NCBI RefSeq assembly: GCF_904067545.1
Contig: NZ_LR881183.1
Coordinates: forward strand, 1,554,277-1,618,276
Reading direction: 5' to 3'
DNA length: 64,000 bases
Origin: Thermococcus camini
GTDB lineage: Archaea; Methanobacteriota_B; Thermococci; Thermococcales; Thermococcaceae
Shown here: positions 47,595-58,630 of the stretch, piece after piece
How positions within the stretch are numbered: the first letter of the stretch is position 1
Layout of the letters: every line of letters starts with the position of its first letter
Made by a program: the position numbers and the translations under genes
The notes under the pieces: generated by a model
What the model was told of the DNA's origin: nothing
Database searches by the model: none
Seen by the model: only the letters and a program-made list of their open reading frames with translations

Positions 47595-47675
47595 TGCCCC
47601 GCTTTATCTTTTGTGTCGTTGACTCTCCCAAAATGCTTATTAGTCTTCCATAGAAAACAACTTTTTGGTGCAACC

Positions 47676-49307
47676 ATGCAGTGTATTGATGGTGAGCCGT
47701 TCAATGGCTGGAGAATATTCTCCGCTAAGGCGGGCTGCTGGGCATTTAAGGGGAAGGATAGAATCTACCTGGTGGAATGGACAGACTATTATGTCGAAGG
47801 CGAGAACAACAGTCTCAAAACAGTCCTAATCAACGGCAAACCCGCGAGAAGACTCAAAAATGAACTTTTTGTAGTATCTTTCGGAAATTTCGTTGGTCTT
47901 TCCGAGCTCGTTCTCCTGTTTGAGGATGGCAAAAAGACAAAAGTCCCCGTTGAGGTTCTTTCGCCCAAGGTTTTGGAGATTTATCCAGAACTTTTCTCAT
48001 CCTTTGAAGGCCATCGGGTTGAGAGGCTCTCACGCCTCCAGAACGCTTTTGTAGAGGCATTAACTGGCGAAATTCTTCGGTATTCGAGTACCATCCCCTT
48101 CCACTTAGAGTCTCCCACTGGGTTCTCGACCCTGGAAAGCGATGAGCCCATCAACGAACTCTTTGCCTACCACTACCTCCGTTCGAAGGGTGAACGAATC
48201 ATCGGGGCCTTTGAAACAGTGATGCACCGCATGAAGAAGGAGCTGGTTGTGGAGGAGGAATTGTTGAGGCCCGACGAGGTCGATGAGGTAACGCTTGAAA
48301 CACTCCTATCCCTTGTTCAGCACCCCGAATATCTCGCCCCCGCGGGAGAGGGTGTTTTGATAGCAGGGCACCTTAACGGCTACACCCCAACGAAGGTTCT
48401 GGGCTTCCGGAGGTACGAGAGCGCCGATACACCGGAAAACCGCTTTGTCAAGTATTTTCTCAACCTGCTTATTGAGTGGGGCGAGCGTGTCATTGAGGTC
48501 TTTAGAGATAAGGCTGAAGTCGGTTCCCTTGAGGAACTCCTCAGGGAGCTTGAGTTTATCGGGAGCGATGGACTCTGGGACGAAATCGGCGAGATGACGC
48601 TTTTTCCGTACACTTCACAGACGCTTTTGAAGGGTGACGGCTACCGCGACCTGCTTGAGCTTTACAGGGAGTTCACCACCTACGTTCCGTTCTTCGAGGA
48701 ACTGCAGAGGGCGATAGACAACAAAGACGTTGCCAAGCTGTACGAATACTGGGCGTTCTTCAGGCTGGTTGATGAGCTTGGGGCAATTCTCGGAAGGAAA
48801 GAGCTCAAAATCAACATTACTCCGGCGGGCGAGCTCTCTGAAAGCGGAGACGTTTACGCCCAATTCGACAACGGCTGGCGGCTCTACTACAACAAGCGGC
48901 TGACTCCAAGAAGGTGGAGCTACTCGGTGACGTTGAGGCCCGATTTTTCACTGTTTAGCGGCAAGCCTTCAAGGAAAGGGACGAGGCTGATTGGGGTTTT
49001 TGACGCCAAGTTCAAGCTTGACGTGGTGGACGAGAGAGCGGAGATCGAAAACTTTGACGAACTTGATGAGACAATTGAGAAATCCAGAAAATACGAAACG
49101 TGGGCAAAGCTTGAGGATGTTTATAAGATGCATACTTACAGGGACGCGCTCGGGTGCAGGTTCGCGGTGGTTGTCTATCCAGGGAGGAAGAGTGTGTTTT
49201 TTGATGTTAATAAGGGCAAAACCGACGATTTCACACTTACACATGTTTTAACGGGGAATCTGGAGGGTGTTGGTTATTTAAGGCTGATCCCGGGGGTGGA
49301 ATTGTGA
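47676..49307 (+). CDS. DUF2357-type PD-(D/E)XK nuclease (McrC-like partner 1)
   Basis: 543 residues. An N-terminal beta-rich DUF2357 region is followed by a C-terminal nuclease core: LRPDFSLFSGKPS and, after a strand, LIGVFDAKFKLD (Asp...Asp-X-Lys), then HTYRDALGCRFAVVVYP. The order and partnership with an McrB-type GTPase point to a methyl-directed restriction nuclease. ATG 47676 follows GGTGCAACC; TATA-like GCTTATTAG is at about 47634. Its stop overlaps the McrB gene by 4 nt. Confidence 0.85.
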   Translation: MQCIDGEPFNGWRIFSAKAGCWAFKGKDRIYLVEWTDYYVEGENNSLKTVLINGKPARRLKNELFVVSFGNFVGLSELVLLFEDGKKTKVPVEVLSPKVLEIYPELFSSFEGHRVERLSRLQNAFVEALTGEILRYSSTIPFHLESPTGFSTLESDEPINELFAYHYLRSKGERIIGAFETVMHRMKKELVVEEELLRPDEVDEVTLETLLSLVQHPEYLAPAGEGVLIAGHLNGYTPTKVLGFRRYESADTPENRFVKYFLNLLIEWGERVIEVFRDKAEVGSLEELLRELEFIGSDGLWDEIGEMTLFPYTSQTLLKGDGYRDLLELYREFTTYVPFFEELQRAIDNKDVAKLYEYWAFFRLVDELGAILGRKELKINITPAGELSESGDVYAQFDNGWRLYYNKRLTPRRWSYSVTLRPDFSLFSGKPSRKGTRLIGVFDAKFKLDVVDERAEIENFDELDETIEKSRKYETWAKLEDVYKMHTYRDALGCRFAVVVYPGRKSVFFDVNKGKTDDFTLTHVLTGNLEGVGYLRLIPGVEL

Positions 49308-51637
49308 GGGAAGATATCCTGGAAGCTGTCTTAAAGAAAGGGTTGGAGAAATACCACGAGGAATGGAGGAAGAATCAAGAAGCGGTCTTTGAAAACATAG
49401 GAAAGTTAAGAGACATGGCCAAGAAAGATTATGTTACAGCGGAGGATGTGAGATCAGTTCATGATAATGTCACAAAACGGTTAAAGAACCTAACCGGAAT
49501 TGAAATCCTATGGCTTTGGGGCGGTAAAGACGCGAAAATCGAGGAGTTCCTTAACAGACAGGAATTTAAAACCCTTCTTTCAAAAGCGGAGAGAATCAAA
49601 GATGTGTCCGAGGCTGAAGAACTTCAGGAACTTCTCATGAAAGTTACGCAAGGAAAACACACCAAACTCTCAACTGTCAGCTCCTGGCTTTGTGTAATGA
49701 ATTCCAAGGTATTTTATCCAATGCATACACAAACTCTCCCCAAACAACTTAGGGAGAAGATTGGAATAGAAATAATATGGGGAGGAAAAACAAACGAAAA
49801 GAGCATACAAGAATACTTAGCTTTTCTGAAAACCCTTGAAAGAATTAACAAAAAGCTGGGAATCGAGAATATGGTTGAAGCAGCGTTTTATTTAAGCAGA
49901 TTCTCTAAAGGGAAACTGGAGAGTCATGAAACTAATCAACCAAACTATTATTTGGAAATAACAAAACCTCCTGGAAAACCCTACCTGGAAAATCACGTCG
50001 GCAGATTCCTTTGGTCTCCAGCAGATGAAAGGTACTTGGATGGCCGTGAAGGAAAGATAGGGCTATTGAACACTGGTGACATCATAGTTCATGATGTTAA
50101 TGGAAAGATAGTAGGATACTCCAAAGTCGCAGAAAAGCCCAAAGTAGTTTCGAGGGATGAAATTATCAAAATATTTACCGATGAAGGGATTTGGAACCCA
50201 GAATACTCAAAGTTTGCTGAAGGCTGGTTTAGGAAATCACCGGATGATAAGTTCTATCTGGTAAAGCTCAGGGACTTCCAAAAGCTACCCGAGAAAATAG
50301 GGTATACTAAACTCAAGCATCTTCCGCACCCTACAAGTATCCAAGGAGTTTATCTAAAAGAAATTGATTCAAAGGTTCTAGAAGAGCTGGGTGTCGTGTC
50401 TAGCAAAAATAAAGATATCCCGTCTCAGGGGCTTACACTACGTGACTACCTTGCCTCCAAGGGCTACCTCTATCAAGAACACCTCGTCTCCCAGTTCTAC
50501 ACCGCCCTCAAAACCAAAGGTTTCGTCATCCTCTCCGGTCTTACAGGAACAGGGAAGACAAAGATAGTTCAAGAGCTTGCAAAGCTTCTTGATTCAAGTG
50601 GGGAAAATTTTCTCTTCCTTTCCGTCCGCCCAGATTGGAGGGATTCAAAGGCTCTCCTCGGCTATTACAACCCCCTAACTGGCAAGTACCACCGGACAAA
50701 GCTCCTCGACTTCATCCTCAAAGCCAGAAAGGACTACGAGCGTAATGGAAGAAATTCAGCGCCCTACTTCCTCCTTCTCGACGAGATGAATTTAGCTCAC
50801 GTTGAGTACTACTTCGCCGACTTCCTCAGCGTCCTTGAGAGCGGAAGGGATGAGGACGGGTTCACAAGGGAGGGTATTAAGCTCCACGACGTTGATGAGG
50901 TTGAAACCTTCGATGGAATTCCCAAAGAGCTCCACCTTCCGCCCAACCTTTACATCATCGGGACGGTAAACATGGACGAGACTACCTATTCCTTCAGCCC
51001 CAAGGTTCTCGACAGGGCCTTCACAGTGGAGTTCCACGATGTCGAGCTTGAGGTATACCCCTCGGGGAGTGGGGAAAGTAGACTGCCCAACGAAGCCGTT
51101 GACACTCTAAGGGACTCAATATTGAGAGATCTCAGCGGCAAGAACGGCCAGTTCCTCGCGCGTTCGAAAGGGGAGATAAACGAAGCGGTTAAAGAGCTGA
51201 AGGACGCTAAAAGTGGGGAGTACTGGAGGATTCTCATTGAACTGAACAAAGCCCTCGAGCCCTACGACATGCACTTCGGCTACCGCGTTGTTGATGATAT
51301 TGCACTGTTTGTCCAGCGCGCCAGGGAAAGTTGGGAAAACGGAATCGTTGAATTTGAGAGTGACGACGAAATCTTCGACCTTGCACTTCTTATGAAGGTT
51401 CTTCCCAAGTTCCACGGGAACAGAAAGAAGCTCGAAGAACCACTAAAGGCCGTTTTGGGGCTGTGTCTCTTGGAGAACGCAGGACTTGACGTCCGGGAGC
51501 TCAGGAGAGGGAACGTCCTGGAACTCCTCAGAAACTGGGAAACCCAAAGGGAGAACTTCCGCTTCAGACACACGGCTAAAAAAGTCCTCCGCATGCTCCG
51601 CCAGCTCTACGAGATAGGCTTCGCGAGCTTCAGCTGA
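49304..51637 (+). CDS. mcrB: McrB-type AAA+ GTPase with EVE/YTH-like domain
   Basis: 777 residues. The helical N-terminal domain (1-205) is related to that of the second McrB here. An insert (about 213-285; YYLEITKPPG, then GRFLWSPADERY and VGYSKVAEKP) looks like an EVE/PUA/YTH-type base-recognition domain. AAA+ module: Walker A GLTGTGKT (about 412-419), Walker B FLLLDEMNLA (about 489-498), the McrB motif NMDETTYSFSPKVLDRAFTVEF. In T. gammatolerans McrB, a YTH-like domain that binds modified DNA is known. GTG start overlapping the nuclease stop. A+T rich from about 49.3 to 50.4 kb compared with neighbours. Confidence 0.9.
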   Translation: MREDILEAVLKKGLEKYHEEWRKNQEAVFENIGKLRDMAKKDYVTAEDVRSVHDNVTKRLKNLTGIEILWLWGGKDAKIEEFLNRQEFKTLLSKAERIKDVSEAEELQELLMKVTQGKHTKLSTVSSWLCVMNSKVFYPMHTQTLPKQLREKIGIEIIWGGKTNEKSIQEYLAFLKTLERINKKLGIENMVEAAFYLSRFSKGKLESHETNQPNYYLEITKPPGKPYLENHVGRFLWSPADERYLDGREGKIGLLNTGDIIVHDVNGKIVGYSKVAEKPKVVSRDEIIKIFTDEGIWNPEYSKFAEGWFRKSPDDKFYLVKLRDFQKLPEKIGYTKLKHLPHPTSIQGVYLKEIDSKVLEELGVVSSKNKDIPSQGLTLRDYLASKGYLYQEHLVSQFYTALKTKGFVILSGLTGTGKTKIVQELAKLLDSSGENFLFLSVRPDWRDSKALLGYYNPLTGKYHRTKLLDFILKARKDYERNGRNSAPYFLLLDEMNLAHVEYYFADFLSVLESGRDEDGFTREGIKLHDVDEVETFDGIPKELHLPPNLYIIGTVNMDETTYSFSPKVLDRAFTVEFHDVELEVYPSGSGESRLPNEAVDTLRDSILRDLSGKNGQFLARSKGEINEAVKELKDAKSGEYWRILIELNKALEPYDMHFGYRVVDDIALFVQRARESWENGIVEFESDDEIFDLALLMKVLPKFHGNRKKLEEPLKAVLGLCLLENAGLDVRELRRGNVLELLRNWETQRENFRFRHTAKKVLRMLRQLYEIGFASFS

Positions 51638-51661
51638 CCCCCTATTTTTCGAAACCCTTAT

Positions 51662-51699
51662 AACTTACCCCTGGGTAAGTTACTTACGGTGGGGTAAGT
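51662..51699. promoter_or_regulatory. Tandem palindromes before ATPase copy 2
   Basis: AACTTACCC-CT-GGGTAAGTT (51662-51681) is a perfect palindrome with a 2-nt centre. It is followed at once by ACTTAC-GGTGGG-GTAAGT (51682-51699), with a 6-nt centre, which runs into the TTG start of the ATPase gene. Probable double operator. A matching pair lies over the end of the gene. Confidence 0.8.
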
Positions 51700-52805
51700 T
51701 GCTGTTTGACCTCCAACCAAAGACGAAGAGAGAAGATTTATACGACAGGGAAAAGGAGCTTTCGGAGTTCAAGGAAGCCTTAGATCTGGGAGAGAGGCTC
51801 GTCCTCCTCCTGGGCATACGACGTCTTGGAAAGAGCTCCCTCCTAAACGTGGCCCTCTCAGAAGCAAGCTATCCTTACGCCAAAATAGACGTTCGCTCCA
51901 TGTACTTCACCCGTGGCTCCATTCCGCAGGAAATCCTCGCGAAAAGAATCCTGAGTTCGCTCATCGAATCCCTTCCCCCAAGTGGAAAACTCAGGCTCGG
52001 CATGACGGAGGCACTTTCATCAATCCGGGGAATCCGTCTTTCGGGAGTTCACGTGGAGTTCGAGAAGAAGCCAGACCTCGCCGAAATTCTGGAAAAGATA
52101 GACTCCTGGGCGGGAAGTGAAGGGAGACGGGTCATCATAGGGTTTGACGAAGCCCAGTACCTTCGCCTCTCAGGCATACAGTACGATGGGCTGATAGCTT
52201 ACGCCGTTGATAACCTTCCAAACCTAACCTTCGTTCTAACGGGCTCGGAGGTTGGAATGCTCCACGACTTCCTCGGCCTTGATAATCCCAAGAAACCGCT
52301 TTTCGGCAGGTACGCCAGGGAAATAACACTGGAGAGATTCAGCCGGGAACAGAGCATTGGGTTCCTGGAAACGGGTTTCAAAGAGCTTGGAATCGATATA
52401 AGTCCTTCAGAGCTCGAACGAGCAGTTGATAAACTCGACGGAATCGTGGGCTGGCTGAGCATGTACGGCTACCTCAGGGGAATCCAAAAGCTCCCGGAAA
52501 GGGATGCCTTGAATGAGCTGTTCCACAGGGCACAGGCTCTGGTATTGGATGAACTTTCCTCCCTGCTTTCACATAGCAAGCGGTACGGGTTCATACTTAA
52601 GGCCGTTGCAATGGGCAACGAAAGGTGGAGCGATATAAAGGAGTACCTGGAATTCAAAGCGGGCAAGATAAACGACTCAAAGTTTTCCAGTCTCCTAAAG
52701 AACCTGGTGAAGTACGGCTACTTGGATAAAAGCGCCAATGGGTATGTAATTCCCGACCCGGTTGTTGAGGAGGTCATTAAGGGCCTCCAACTTACCCCCG
52801 GGTAA
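51699..52805 (+). CDS. Archaeal AAA-type ATPase, copy 2
   Basis: 368 residues, TTG start. MLFDLQPKTKREDLYDREKE, Walker A GIRRLGKSS, Walker B VIIGFDEAQYL, sensor FVLTGSEVGM, then LLHDFLGLDNPKKPLFGRY-like sequence and a C-terminal winged-helix-like part. It is a clear paralogue of the 25447-26541 protein (PF01637 archaeal ATPase). The stop codon lies inside a palindrome equal to the one before the start. Function unknown; self-regulation by binding these palindromes through the C-terminal domain is conceivable. Confidence 0.88.
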   Translation: MLFDLQPKTKREDLYDREKELSEFKEALDLGERLVLLLGIRRLGKSSLLNVALSEASYPYAKIDVRSMYFTRGSIPQEILAKRILSSLIESLPPSGKLRLGMTEALSSIRGIRLSGVHVEFEKKPDLAEILEKIDSWAGSEGRRVIIGFDEAQYLRLSGIQYDGLIAYAVDNLPNLTFVLTGSEVGMLHDFLGLDNPKKPLFGRYAREITLERFSREQSIGFLETGFKELGIDISPSELERAVDKLDGIVGWLSMYGYLRGIQKLPERDALNELFHRAQALVLDELSSLLSHSKRYGFILKAVAMGNERWSDIKEYLEFKAGKINDSKFSSLLKNLVKYGYLDKSANGYVIPDPVVEEVIKGLQLTPG

Positions 52806-52822
52806 GTTCCTTACCCAGGGGC
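52789..52822. repeat. Tandem palindromes over the ATPase copy 2 stop
   Basis: AACTTACCC-CC-GGGTAAGTT (52789-52808) has the same arms as the upstream palindrome. A second imperfect one follows (CTTACCC-AG-GGGCAAG, 52810-52825). The stop codon TAA (52803-52805) is part of the first. Confidence 0.8.
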
Positions 52823-52947
52823 AAGCCAATGTCCCAACCGGGATGTTCCAGGAATGCAGAAGACGTAAGGAACCCTACTATCAATCAGAGTGTCCCAAAA
52901 TGGACCCGAAATGAGGGGGAGTAAAAGATTCCAAGAGGCAGGAGGTT

Positions 52948-54777: not shown

Positions 54778-56205
54778 TCAGTCTCCGGTGGAGATAGTGA
54801 ACACACCCTTCAGGGCCCCTCCAAATTTCTCGTCTGCTTTGGACACGTTTCCATTTTTCAGACATTCCATGTTGTAAGCGATTACAAAGAGCTTTCTTCC
54901 ATCGAAAAACTCAAAATCCAAAGGTCCGTCCGAGAGTCCCTGATTATAAGTTGAGCTGGAGGGAACTATAATAACCGCTGGCGGTTTTGAGTCTCTCTCG
55001 CATTGATTATCAGGATGCCATCCCCAAATTCTTGAATAAACGTAGAGCTGACGAACGATATCTGGCTTAATTTCGATCTTTGTTTTTCCATTCTTATCAG
55101 TCTCGACAAGTTTCGTGTATTTAGCATCCAATATTACGGACCAATCCTCCAGATGAAGAATGTAGTCCGGATACTGGTTCTTAAGAGAAACTTCTGGGGG
55201 CTTACTATTAAACAGCTTCCTTCTGTTTTCGGAATCTTTGTTGGTTGTGAGTTTATATCCGCGCTCTTCTGCATACCAGGATAAAACCCTCACAATGTAC
55301 AGCTCAAACAGTCTGTTCATATCGACGAAAAAGCCAGTAACTTCCCGTCTTCTCCCTTCGCCGCTTGCAGGCATGAACAAAAGTTTGGCCAGCTCAAAGG
55401 GCTTCCTGAACCTTTCGTTTAGCCTTGTGAAATGAACGCGCTCAAAATGTTCCCTCGTAGGATGGATTAAGGTAACTCCCTCAAAGGCAAGCATCAAATT
55501 TCCAAGCAGCTTTTTGTTGATGCTCCACGTTGTTGTCCCCATGGCTTTCCTGATGGAGAAGTGGAATACCCTGTTGAGAAGGTTGTCCTCGATGAGCTCA
55601 TGAACTTCAACGCTGAAAGTGTTCAACTGGTGTGGGAGCTTTCGTATCTGTCTGCTCAACAGGAGTTTTCCTCTAAGGAAATCCTCGTTGCTTTGAAGTT
55701 CAACATACTCCCTGTGATAACCCCTCTGAACTTCCTCCCAGAGACTTTTGGCAAAGAGATATATGAAAACCTCGTGGAGGCTTGGTCGAAGCTTCCTCCC
55801 ATAAAGGTAGGCCAAATTGTAATCCCTGATTTTTAAGCCATATGCTCTGTCAAGCATTCGTATAAAGGCCAGCAAAGATTTCCATGTCTCCTCCCGTGTT
55901 TGTTCGCCCTCCTTTGGCTCAAAAACCTTTGGAAGAATCTGGATGAAAACGTTGCCGATGGCGGCAAAGCCAACGTAGTGGCGTGCTTTAATTTTGTTGG
56001 CATAGACCTCCACGACGCCTTTGCTCTCGTCAATCTCATTCTCGCTATCCAAGTTGTCCTCGGATTTGTCAATTCGTTTGAAGTCCTTTCTAAACTGGAG
56101 ATTCAGCTTAATGAGGGCATCCTGGATGGTCTTTTTGTCTCCGCTGATATCTTTGTATCTCATTGTCCCATGTTCGTAGAGCGTTATTGTGATAGGACCA
56201 GGCAT
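54778..56205 (-). CDS. mcrC: McrC-type nuclease subunit (partner 2)
   Basis: 475 residues, the usual McrC length. N-terminal region with GVVEVYANKIKARHYVGFAA and IGNVFIQILPK, a middle helical part, then the PD-(D/E)XK core: QYPDYILHLEDWSVILDAKYT (Asp...Asp-Ala-Lys). It ends in FDGRKLFVIAYN. It makes the cutting subunit of a McrBC system with the 56221-58197 McrB. ATG 56205, 15 nt after the McrB stop. Confidence 0.9.
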   Translation of the reverse strand: MPGPITITLYEHGTMRYKDISGDKKTIQDALIKLNLQFRKDFKRIDKSEDNLDSENEIDESKGVVEVYANKIKARHYVGFAAIGNVFIQILPKVFEPKEGEQTREETWKSLLAFIRMLDRAYGLKIRDYNLAYLYGRKLRPSLHEVFIYLFAKSLWEEVQRGYHREYVELQSNEDFLRGKLLLSRQIRKLPHQLNTFSVEVHELIEDNLLNRVFHFSIRKAMGTTTWSINKKLLGNLMLAFEGVTLIHPTREHFERVHFTRLNERFRKPFELAKLLFMPASGEGRRREVTGFFVDMNRLFELYIVRVLSWYAEERGYKLTTNKDSENRRKLFNSKPPEVSLKNQYPDYILHLEDWSVILDAKYTKLVETDKNGKTKIEIKPDIVRQLYVYSRIWGWHPDNQCERDSKPPAVIIVPSSSTYNQGLSDGPLDFEFFDGRKLFVIAYNMECLKNGNVSKADEKFGGALKGVFTISTGD

Positions 56206-56220
56206 ATGAATTCAACTCCA

Positions 56221-58197
56221 TCAATCTGATGGCTGACTGCTTTCTGTTGAGTTCTCAGCCTCTCTCATAGCTTGGTTGTTATCTGAAGAGTTCTCTCTGT
56301 CCATTACTCTCTTTAGTGCATTGACAAAATCATTCCCTTCAAGGACTTTCAGCTGATATGCCTTCTCCCCATTTGGTCCAGTGACATTATCAAGCTTTTC
56401 AAAGAACACGTTCCCAGAATCTCTGCCTCCTTCATTCAGAACCCACTTTATTGTCTCCCAGTCGTTGTAGAAGTACTCCATGAGGAGCGGGAGCACTTCG
56501 TAGTACCAGACTCGCTTGAGATCCTCAACGGTCTCTACGTTCAGGAAGTAGCTGTGGCCTATCCGGTGGTCGCGGTCTTTGACCGCAGTAATACGGTCGT
56601 TGGTGGCTTTCAACAGTTCGGCGAGATTGATACCTTCAATAGTCCTTAGTTTCTCAGGGTCTGGCTCGACTTCAATGAAGGCGAACCTTCTCCTCAGGGC
56701 AACGTCGAGTAAAGCGATGCTCCTGTCGGCGGTGTTCATCGTGCCGATGATGTAAAGGTTCGGCGGAACCGCAAAGGGTTCACCCGAGTATGGTAACCTA
56801 ACGATAAGCTGGTTGTCACCGCCGAGGCGCTTGTCCTTTTCGAGGAGGGTTATCAGTTCGCCAAGAATTTTGCTGATGTTTCCGCGGTTAATCTCGTCGA
56901 CGATGAGGTAGAATTTAGGTGCGTTGGAGAAGTCAATGACTTTTTTAGACCTGATATGCTCGACGACACGTTTTTTGATTCCCTCATAGTTATCCTCTGC
57001 GTTGAGTACTCCACGTAGCGCCTGATAGACCGCAAAATAATATGAACCCGAGCCAGTATCCCCAATGATGGAGGTTACCTCAGGAATAGTCCGCACTTCC
57101 CCATGCTCCCAAAGAAGCCGGAGGTTTTTCGTTGAAATATAGTGTTCGTTGTTTCCATTTTCAGGCTTTATGAACAGACCGCCCTCTGTAAACCTGACAA
57201 CCCTGAATTCATTACCAGTCTTCGTTTTGAGAGAACTTCCCCCAGGGTAAGTCTCCTTGAAAAGATGCCACGCATTTTCGAAATCTCGAACAATTGCACT
57301 CCATATAGCTTTGATTGCCATCTTCTTGAATATTCCATCCTCGACTTCATACCTGATATTCCCTCCCTTGTCAGTCTTCGGCCTGAACCCTTCAATGAAC
57401 TCCTCGTAGCTGTAGGACTGGTGGAAGGTTATTAACTCCCAGCGGTTTCCGGGCTTGTTTTCGCCAGTTTTTTCAACGACATAGTTGCGGGCTATGTACG
57501 TTTTGCCCGTTCCAGGTGGACCGTAGAGGATTACCTGACCTTTTTTGGGGAGGAGTTCATCAAGCTGTCGCGTTATCTTTCCATTAACATTCCCATTGTT
57601 TTCCATACAACATTCCTCCCGGCATTTTGAAAGGTAAAACCCCGCCTCAAGGGCGTATTTTATGCCAAGCCCCTCCTTGACCGAGTTTATACCTTTAATC
57701 AGCCACACCGCTTTATCTATCTCCCAATTTCCACCAACGATAGGGCTGCTATCTCCAAACAGGACTTTCCTCACTTTTTCTCCGATAACATGTTTCCCTA
57801 TCGGGATAAATACCTCAGGATTAGCCAGTGCGAGATACGTGAAAATCCCCGAAAGCCCAATGCCTCGGTATCTAGTTCTGATTTCTGTGATGTCGTTTTT
57901 AAGTTCGAGAAAATCAACGGTCTCCAAGGCATGGTACCTAGAAAGTAATGCCATGACACTTTTGTTTTTGAGAACCTTCTGTAACTGAGGAATATCGAAA
58001 AATCTCCCAGTTCCTATTTTAGAGTTAATTTTTCTGACAGTCATGGCTATCTCATCGGGATCGAACCTTCCTGACTCAATTCTTTCTTTAACTTCCTTGA
58101 TCCGGTGGAGTATCTCCCCCTCTTTGCGCTGCCATTCATCCCGGTGTTTCTCTTTCAAACAATGAAGCAAAGTATTAAGCTTTTCTTCCATAGACAT
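56221..58197 (-). CDS. mcrB: McrB-type AAA+ GTPase (system 2)
   Basis: 658 residues. Helical N-terminal domain (1-195) similar to that of the first McrB (HRDEWQRKEGEILHRIKEVK; GLGIKYALEAGFYLSKC). No EVE-like insert before the AAA+ module. Walker A GPPGTGKT (226-233), Walker B FYLIVDEINRGNISKILGEL, the McrB motif NTADRSIALLDVALRRRFAF. ATG 58197 follows GGGGGTGACCATC. Its start overlaps the upstream small gene by 23 nt. Confidence 0.9.
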   Translation of the reverse strand: MSMEEKLNTLLHCLKEKHRDEWQRKEGEILHRIKEVKERIESGRFDPDEIAMTVRKINSKIGTGRFFDIPQLQKVLKNKSVMALLSRYHALETVDFLELKNDITEIRTRYRGIGLSGIFTYLALANPEVFIPIGKHVIGEKVRKVLFGDSSPIVGGNWEIDKAVWLIKGINSVKEGLGIKYALEAGFYLSKCREECCMENNGNVNGKITRQLDELLPKKGQVILYGPPGTGKTYIARNYVVEKTGENKPGNRWELITFHQSYSYEEFIEGFRPKTDKGGNIRYEVEDGIFKKMAIKAIWSAIVRDFENAWHLFKETYPGGSSLKTKTGNEFRVVRFTEGGLFIKPENGNNEHYISTKNLRLLWEHGEVRTIPEVTSIIGDTGSGSYYFAVYQALRGVLNAEDNYEGIKKRVVEHIRSKKVIDFSNAPKFYLIVDEINRGNISKILGELITLLEKDKRLGGDNQLIVRLPYSGEPFAVPPNLYIIGTMNTADRSIALLDVALRRRFAFIEVEPDPEKLRTIEGINLAELLKATNDRITAVKDRDHRIGHSYFLNVETVEDLKRVWYYEVLPLLMEYFYNDWETIKWVLNEGGRDSGNVFFEKLDNVTGPNGEKAYQLKVLEGNDFVNALKRVMDRENSSDNNQAMREAENSTESSQPSD

Positions 58198-58630
58198 GAT
58201 GGTCACCCCCCGTTGCAATTAACCAGGCTTTCTCAAGCTTTCCCCTGATGCGTTTCCAATACATGAGCCTCTCCTCCGTAACTCGTTCGGGATTGACGAG
58301 AAAGCTACCATCACTTGTCTGGGATATTAGCTTATCCTCTATTAGCTCTCTAAGAGTGAATTCAAGGGGTCTATTCGGCTTAATGATGTTGACATAAATC
58401 TCGTCATCAACAATTAAAAGGGCGTTCAAAAGTGCCCTAATGTCCTCCTTGGAAACCCCTTTTTCCTTTCCGCCGTAGTGCTGGATGTAGTATATCACGT
58501 TGAGGAGGAGAAACTCCCTCCTCCCTGCCCTAAGCCAGTCCTCCCAGTGCTCGGGGTGTCTCTCGGGATGTAATACCGCATCTTTCATGTAATCCAGCAT
58601 TTCTTCAACGCGTTTGTCATCACCACTCAT
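58175..58630 (-). CDS. Unrecognised helical protein upstream of mcrB
   Basis: 151 residues, mostly helical: VEEMLDYMKDAVLHPERHPE, WEDWLRAGRREFLLLNVIYY, then SKEDIRALLNALLIVDDEIY and LTRELIEDKLISQTSDG-like sequence resembling a winged-helix wing. ATG 58630 has GGGTGAGCGCG upstream; GTG 58639 is possible. Overlaps both neighbours (11 and 23 nt), so it is tightly co-translated with McrB. Function unknown; an accessory or regulatory subunit is plausible. Confidence 0.72.
   Translation of the reverse strand: MSGDDKRVEEMLDYMKDAVLHPERHPEHWEDWLRAGRREFLLLNVIYYIQHYGGKEKGVSKEDIRALLNALLIVDDEIYVNIIKPNRPLEFTLRELIEDKLISQTSDGSFLVNPERVTEERLMYWKRIRGKLEKAWLIATGGDHHVYGRKA

Follow-up and report, generated by a model that had tools for sequence, protein, structure and literature searches.

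Why should a gene for an AAA+ ATPase carry matching palindromes at both of its ends, and what becomes of the stretch between them in related genomes? The window, by which we mean the whole 64,000-nucleotide stretch analysed (bases 1554277-1618276 of a 2.02-Mb chromosome of Thermococcus type, the rest of which was covered by pattern searches), contains AACTTACCC-NN-GGGTAAGTT exactly at two places, 51662-51681 at the 5' end of the gene and 52789-52808 at its 3' end. The preliminary description had reported such twin palindromes just before the start and across the stop codon, each followed by a weaker unit, and this was fully borne out; the two resulting 37-nt double palindromes (51662-51698 and 52789-52825) are 84% identical. 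The 5' block spans the region from a TATA-like CTTATAA, which is overlapped by unit 1, to the start codon, and the 3' block includes the stop codon. The features are as follows, the palindromes and the promoter-like stretch having been read from the sequence:

51650..51663, plus strand: promoter-like BRE/TATA stretch CGAAACCCTTATAA, a putative promoter that overlaps the 5' site
51662..51681, unstranded: 5' palindrome unit 1, AACTTACCCCTGGGTAAGTT, its core present in 26 of 26 usable subfamily-A loci
51681..51700, unstranded: 5' palindrome unit 2, weaker, TACTTACGGTGGGGTAAGTT, overlapping the TTG start codon and conserved in relatives
51699..52805, plus strand: PF01637 AAA+ ATPase gene, TTG start, 368 aa, from Pfam and structure matches
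52572..52739, plus strand: residues 292-347, a winged helix-turn-helix that probably binds DNA (Pfam PF21100, MCM_C, 46 bits)
52789..52808, unstranded: 3' palindrome unit 1, AACTTACCCCCGGGTAAGTT, with the stop codon inside and a constrained core
about 52807..52825, unstranded: 3' palindrome unit 2, weaker, TTCCTTACCCAGGGGCAAG

With up to three mismatches allowed, four matches to the palindrome were found in the window against 0.03 expected from shuffles, and a pattern search of the 2.02-Mb genome returned perfect copies only at the 5' and 3' places of the ATPase gene. A copy with two mismatches at 57234-57253, inside a 665-aa McrBC-like gene, was set aside as probably due to chance. The CGAAACCCTTATAA stretch is nearly invariant among subfamily-A relatives and is kept in several alleles that have no gene. 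The palindrome thus overlaps the TATA box and start codon of its own gene, which is where the site of an autoregulatory repressor is expected.

The coordinates of the gene and its assignment to PF01637 (ATPase_2) had also been given correctly, the profile scoring 48.2 bits against a curated cut-off of 33.2. The protein resembles PDB 2QEN, from P. abyssi, over residues 1-360 (E 2.7e-69) and PDB 2FNA (SSO1545) over residues 1-356 (E 1e-52), so that its likeness to these archaeal ATPases is that of one protein family over the full length. A Pfam search of the 368 residues found AAA+ and winged-helix domains only, with no recognisable nuclease or recombinase domain. There are 19 PF01637 matches above the Pfam cut-off in the window's genome. 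In the open-access papers searched we found no reported function for PF01637 ATPases, and no report of gene-specific palindromes at either end of such genes or of gene-less alleles that keep a single site.

Over a hundred related genes turned up when 94 Thermococcales genomes were searched, and their flanks were read. Each of the subfamilies into which they split has a start palindrome of its own:

subfamily A (the window's gene): AACTTACCC..GGGTAAGT
subfamily B: AACTTGCAGGGGTGCAAGT, with interrupted arms
subfamily C: CCCACCAGTNACTGGTGGG
subfamily D: GTATCGGTACCGATAC
subfamily E: CCCCAGTAGTTAACTACTGGGG
subfamily F: the remaining genes

Inverted repeats scoring at least 8 near the start were counted in 25 of 28 A genes, 7 of 25 B genes (where the arms are interrupted), 10 of 15 C genes and 28 of 33 D, E and F genes, compared with 1 of 58 in the window's other genes. 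We conclude that a gene-specific promoter/start site is a hallmark of the family, and its geometry would be the usual one for an autoregulatory operator.

The 3' sites are distributed quite differently from this hallmark. Among the 94 genomes they occur only in subfamilies A, B and C, and there only in Thermococcus (22 of 26 usable loci in A and about ten loci in each of B and C); no 3' copy was seen in the D, E and F genes sampled, and the A, B and C relatives in other genera lie at other genomic places and lack 3' sites. Gene-bearing loci without one also include A in G092 and three Pyrococcus-like genomes and several B loci, so the 3' site is dispensable. In one A clade (G049, G050, G055 and G060) the 3' copy has been cut down to one imperfect unit. 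It might therefore be supposed that the 3' copy is a functionless relic of an old tandem duplication or insertion, of consequence only in making the gene prone to deletion, with the 5' site alone serving as an autoregulatory operator; its dispensability, its absence from other genera and from D, E and F, its reduction in the one clade and the family rule of upstream-only sites all sit well with this. Two observations do not. The first is that a cross-match table shows the 3' site to be of the gene's own subfamily type in all three of A, B and C, with some cross-likeness between A and B sites, both of which begin AACTT. The second is the degree to which the 3' site has been conserved, for which the full test was made in subfamily A with 14 genomes that have two-unit sites at both ends. 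Core identity between species was 0.93 for the 3' sites and 0.99 for the 5' sites, whereas that of the third codon positions of the ATPase was 0.50. Gene conversion was considered as a cause of the likeness between the two ends and rejected, as the non-core identity of 3' to 5' copies was no higher within a genome (0.386) than between genomes (0.377); 3' copies compared with other 3' copies gave 0.636. Since the 3' core is conserved well beyond silent positions and the non-core parts are no closer to those of the same genome, the site is constrained without homogenisation from the 5' copy. We conclude that the A 3' copy is an old, separately inherited site with a constrained palindrome core. 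Nothing argues more strongly for a functional second site than this separate constraint, and we regard the relic explanation as unlikely. Looping between two sites by the ATPase itself, which had been proposed at the outset, would be compatible with it.

In subfamily B (L090-L107) the orientation of the purine-rich core of single 3' units varies between species, which suggests that units are recognised symmetrically.

The loci at which these genes are found proved to be fixed within Thermococcus for each of A, B and C. The A gene has iorB on one side and HDAC/TBP on the other; some genomes, that of the window among them, have McrBC-like genes inserted upstream, and in the window's genome HDAC is absent. 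B has one main locus and, in three genomes, a second one, while C follows directly after an M20-type peptidase gene. The McrB-like proteins at the A locus (window 47613-51637; L059, L065 and L072) have closely similar C-terminal ATPase halves and N-terminal halves that are unrelated between species, as if specificity domains had been swapped. Nearby in the window, at 54778-58218 on the minus strand, are two further McrBC-like genes, a pair of 475 and 665 aa.

We found many gene-less alleles at these same loci by scanning for the palindrome patterns. The gene-less A locus of G015 and G022 reads AAACCCTTATAACTTACCCCGGGGTAAG followed by CTCCTTACCCCCGGGTAAGCCAACATCC; its left part is that of the 5' copy of G044, TATA box included, and its right part that of the 3' copy of G042. 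One repeat, with the left flank of a 5' copy and the right flank of a 3' copy, as a deletable gene bounded by repeats would leave behind, is found in these two genomes and in G051 for A; in G071, G001 and the genome of the window itself (G000:C1:412775) for B; and, for C, in G013, G062 and G044, whose flanks correspond to those of G016 (on both sides), G024 and G061 respectively, the junctions being flush. The window's genome has a C solo site as well, at C1:1271110. The solo alleles of A, B and C are thus best described as products of precise gene loss between the site copies. Solo-LTR formation is comparable, in that the interior is lost by recombination of the terminal repeats and one of them stays behind; here, however, the repeats belong, as operator-like sites, to one regulator-like gene and are not the ends of a retroelement. 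The point of crossover varies: some scars place it in unit 1, others (G014, and G071 at the B locus) in unit 2 or further on. We tentatively read the scars of G018, G062 and G043 as three units of which the first has decayed. On the iorA tree the genomes with solo sites are scattered among gene-bearing ones, for which several independent losses would be the simplest reading.

It can be seen that the sites left behind do not last. Gene-less A loci anchored on TBP show perfect sites, remnants or no trace, and at C loci anchored on the peptidase gene a recognisable site is present in 21 of the 37 usable gene-less loci, 9 of the 21 being perfect. Site difference in C is 0.037 in gene-bearing loci and 0.149 in recognisable solos, although left-flank divergence is about 0.22 in both. 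Constraint is therefore relaxed once the gene is lost, which ties the function of the site to the gene and makes recent loss the likeliest origin of the perfect solos.

Subfamily D does not fit so easily. Six gene-less D loci have a 5' site (G020, G021, G036, G043, G064 and G065), as does one E locus (G026), and the D loci have spacers of about 20-45 nt that are absent from gene-bearing alleles. A simple two-copy deletion does not explain these D solos; either there was an ancestral D 3' copy, or presence and absence have been exchanged by another route. At the D loci L305, L306, L312, L315, L323 and L324 and the E locus L282, the full 5' double palindrome and the TATA-like stretch are kept without the gene. 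We also noted that C-type solos adjoin the 3' end of a subfamily-F PF01637 gene at L206 (G041), L207 (G067), L189 (G060) and L155 (G047), so that an ATPase gene ends there where another has left its orphan site.

The idea that the gene and its palindromes form a discrete unit, possibly a mobile one, was part of the preliminary description, and only the former half of it holds, in the one sense that the gene is missing exactly between the site copies in many species, with one copy left. The refuting outcome named there, relatives without downstream palindromes together with empty sites that keep them, was obtained in part: some subfamilies lack the downstream palindrome altogether, but syntenic empty sites keep one copy and not two, as recombination between the copies predicts. 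Mobility is not supported. The loci are fixed within Thermococcus and not the many different sites that a transposon would occupy, a domain search of the ATPase revealed no transposase or recombinase of the kind that would mark a transposon or insertion sequence, and a search of plasmids, phages and viral contigs yielded no relatives. In G092, which belongs to another genus, an A gene lies between iorB and HDAC where the near relative G086 has none, and this copy is without a 3' site; it is most simply a horizontal gain that came without one. The near-identical neighbourhoods of L064 (G092) and L217 (G086) give the exact bounds of this gain. Distances of iorA and of the ATPase correlate at 0.68, which points to inheritance that is mostly, though not only, vertical.

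A more elaborate form of the idea is that of a reversible cassette, in which the ATPase gene and one site would excise as a circle and reinsert at a solo site, the ATPase marking the ends while a host recombinase cuts and joins. That the same locus has a single-site allele in some species and a two-site allele in others, as happens in three subfamilies, and that many C solos are still perfect, would be expected of such a cassette, and the D solos, unexplained by simple deletion, are the main opening for it. An enzyme with neither a recombinase nor a nuclease domain, fixed loci with no plasmid, phage or viral copies found, the gain in G092 without a 3' site, the shifting crossover position and the decay of solos all speak against it, as does the fact that the site differs with the subfamily, which would confront one common host recombinase with unlike sequences. 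We consider this cassette quite unlikely, and regard as very doubtful the stronger proposal that these ATPases are self-addressed cassettes, each protein binding its private palindrome at both gene ends and promoting reversible excision and reinsertion, so that the gene is toggled at fixed chromosomal sites. The dif modules of Acinetobacter plasmids, which share Xer sites and move between plasmids (PMC7399989, PMC13141974), are similar in that a single gene is bounded by short recombination-capable sites, but the ATPase sites are private to each subfamily, their loci are fixed and no recombinase is implicated. Boundary sites common to unrelated cassettes and served by one recombinase, as in dif modules and integron cassettes, are thus not what we see here.

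Insulation between convergent genes was also considered and rejected as a general reason for the 3' site, as the site is present at some C genes whose neighbour seems to run in the same direction and absent from convergent D and E genes; with neighbour orientation judged from mechanical ORF calls, there was no clear association between 3' sites and the direction of the next gene. A role for the 3' palindrome in ending transcription, or as an RNA hairpin protecting the mRNA end, is most improbable despite its position at the stop codon and often between convergent genes: the window sequence has no T-run after it, a terminator would have no need to match the gene-specific 5' site as it does, and those same convergent D and E genes do without it.

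The account that we favour, and which we judge somewhat more probable than its negation, is of an AAA+ autorepressor that would also bind a constrained 3' site, with recurrent deletion between the sites and decay of the solos. A DNA-binding AAA+ regulator would recognise the palindrome specific to its own subfamily, and from the 5' double site, between the TATA box and the start codon, it would repress its own transcription. The ATPase genes are probably self-regulating on these grounds. An archaeal parallel is Stf76 of pSSVx, likewise of the winged-helix type, whose own promoter carries two sites and which was shown to bind there (PMC4027180). The winged helix and the pair of promoter sites are common to both, with binding predicted for the ATPase; the AAA+ domain and the further pair of sites at the gene's 3' end are features of the ATPase. 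The same protein may bind the 3' double site, the separate maintenance of which is seen in subfamily A, and would there either bridge the gene ends, which are about 1.1 kb apart, or act as a roadblock between neighbouring transcription units. Bridging is slightly preferred because AAA+ proteins oligomerise. The repeats share up to about 20-30 identical bases, and sites so alike and so close together would be subject to recurrent clean deletion of the gene, presumably by recombination or replication slippage, leaving the single-site alleles that are seen. Once the binding protein had gone the leftover site would decay, for which the subfamily-C comparison provides statistical support.

The arrangement is an unusual one, in which a regulator-like gene has separately maintained operator-like sites at both of its ends. 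With a predicted binding site for each subfamily, the DNA-binding function of PF01637 ATPases becomes directly testable, and the alleles of three subfamilies, in which the gene is present, a solo site is left or the site has decayed, form a natural series that may reveal how operator repeats shape gene loss in hyperthermophiles.
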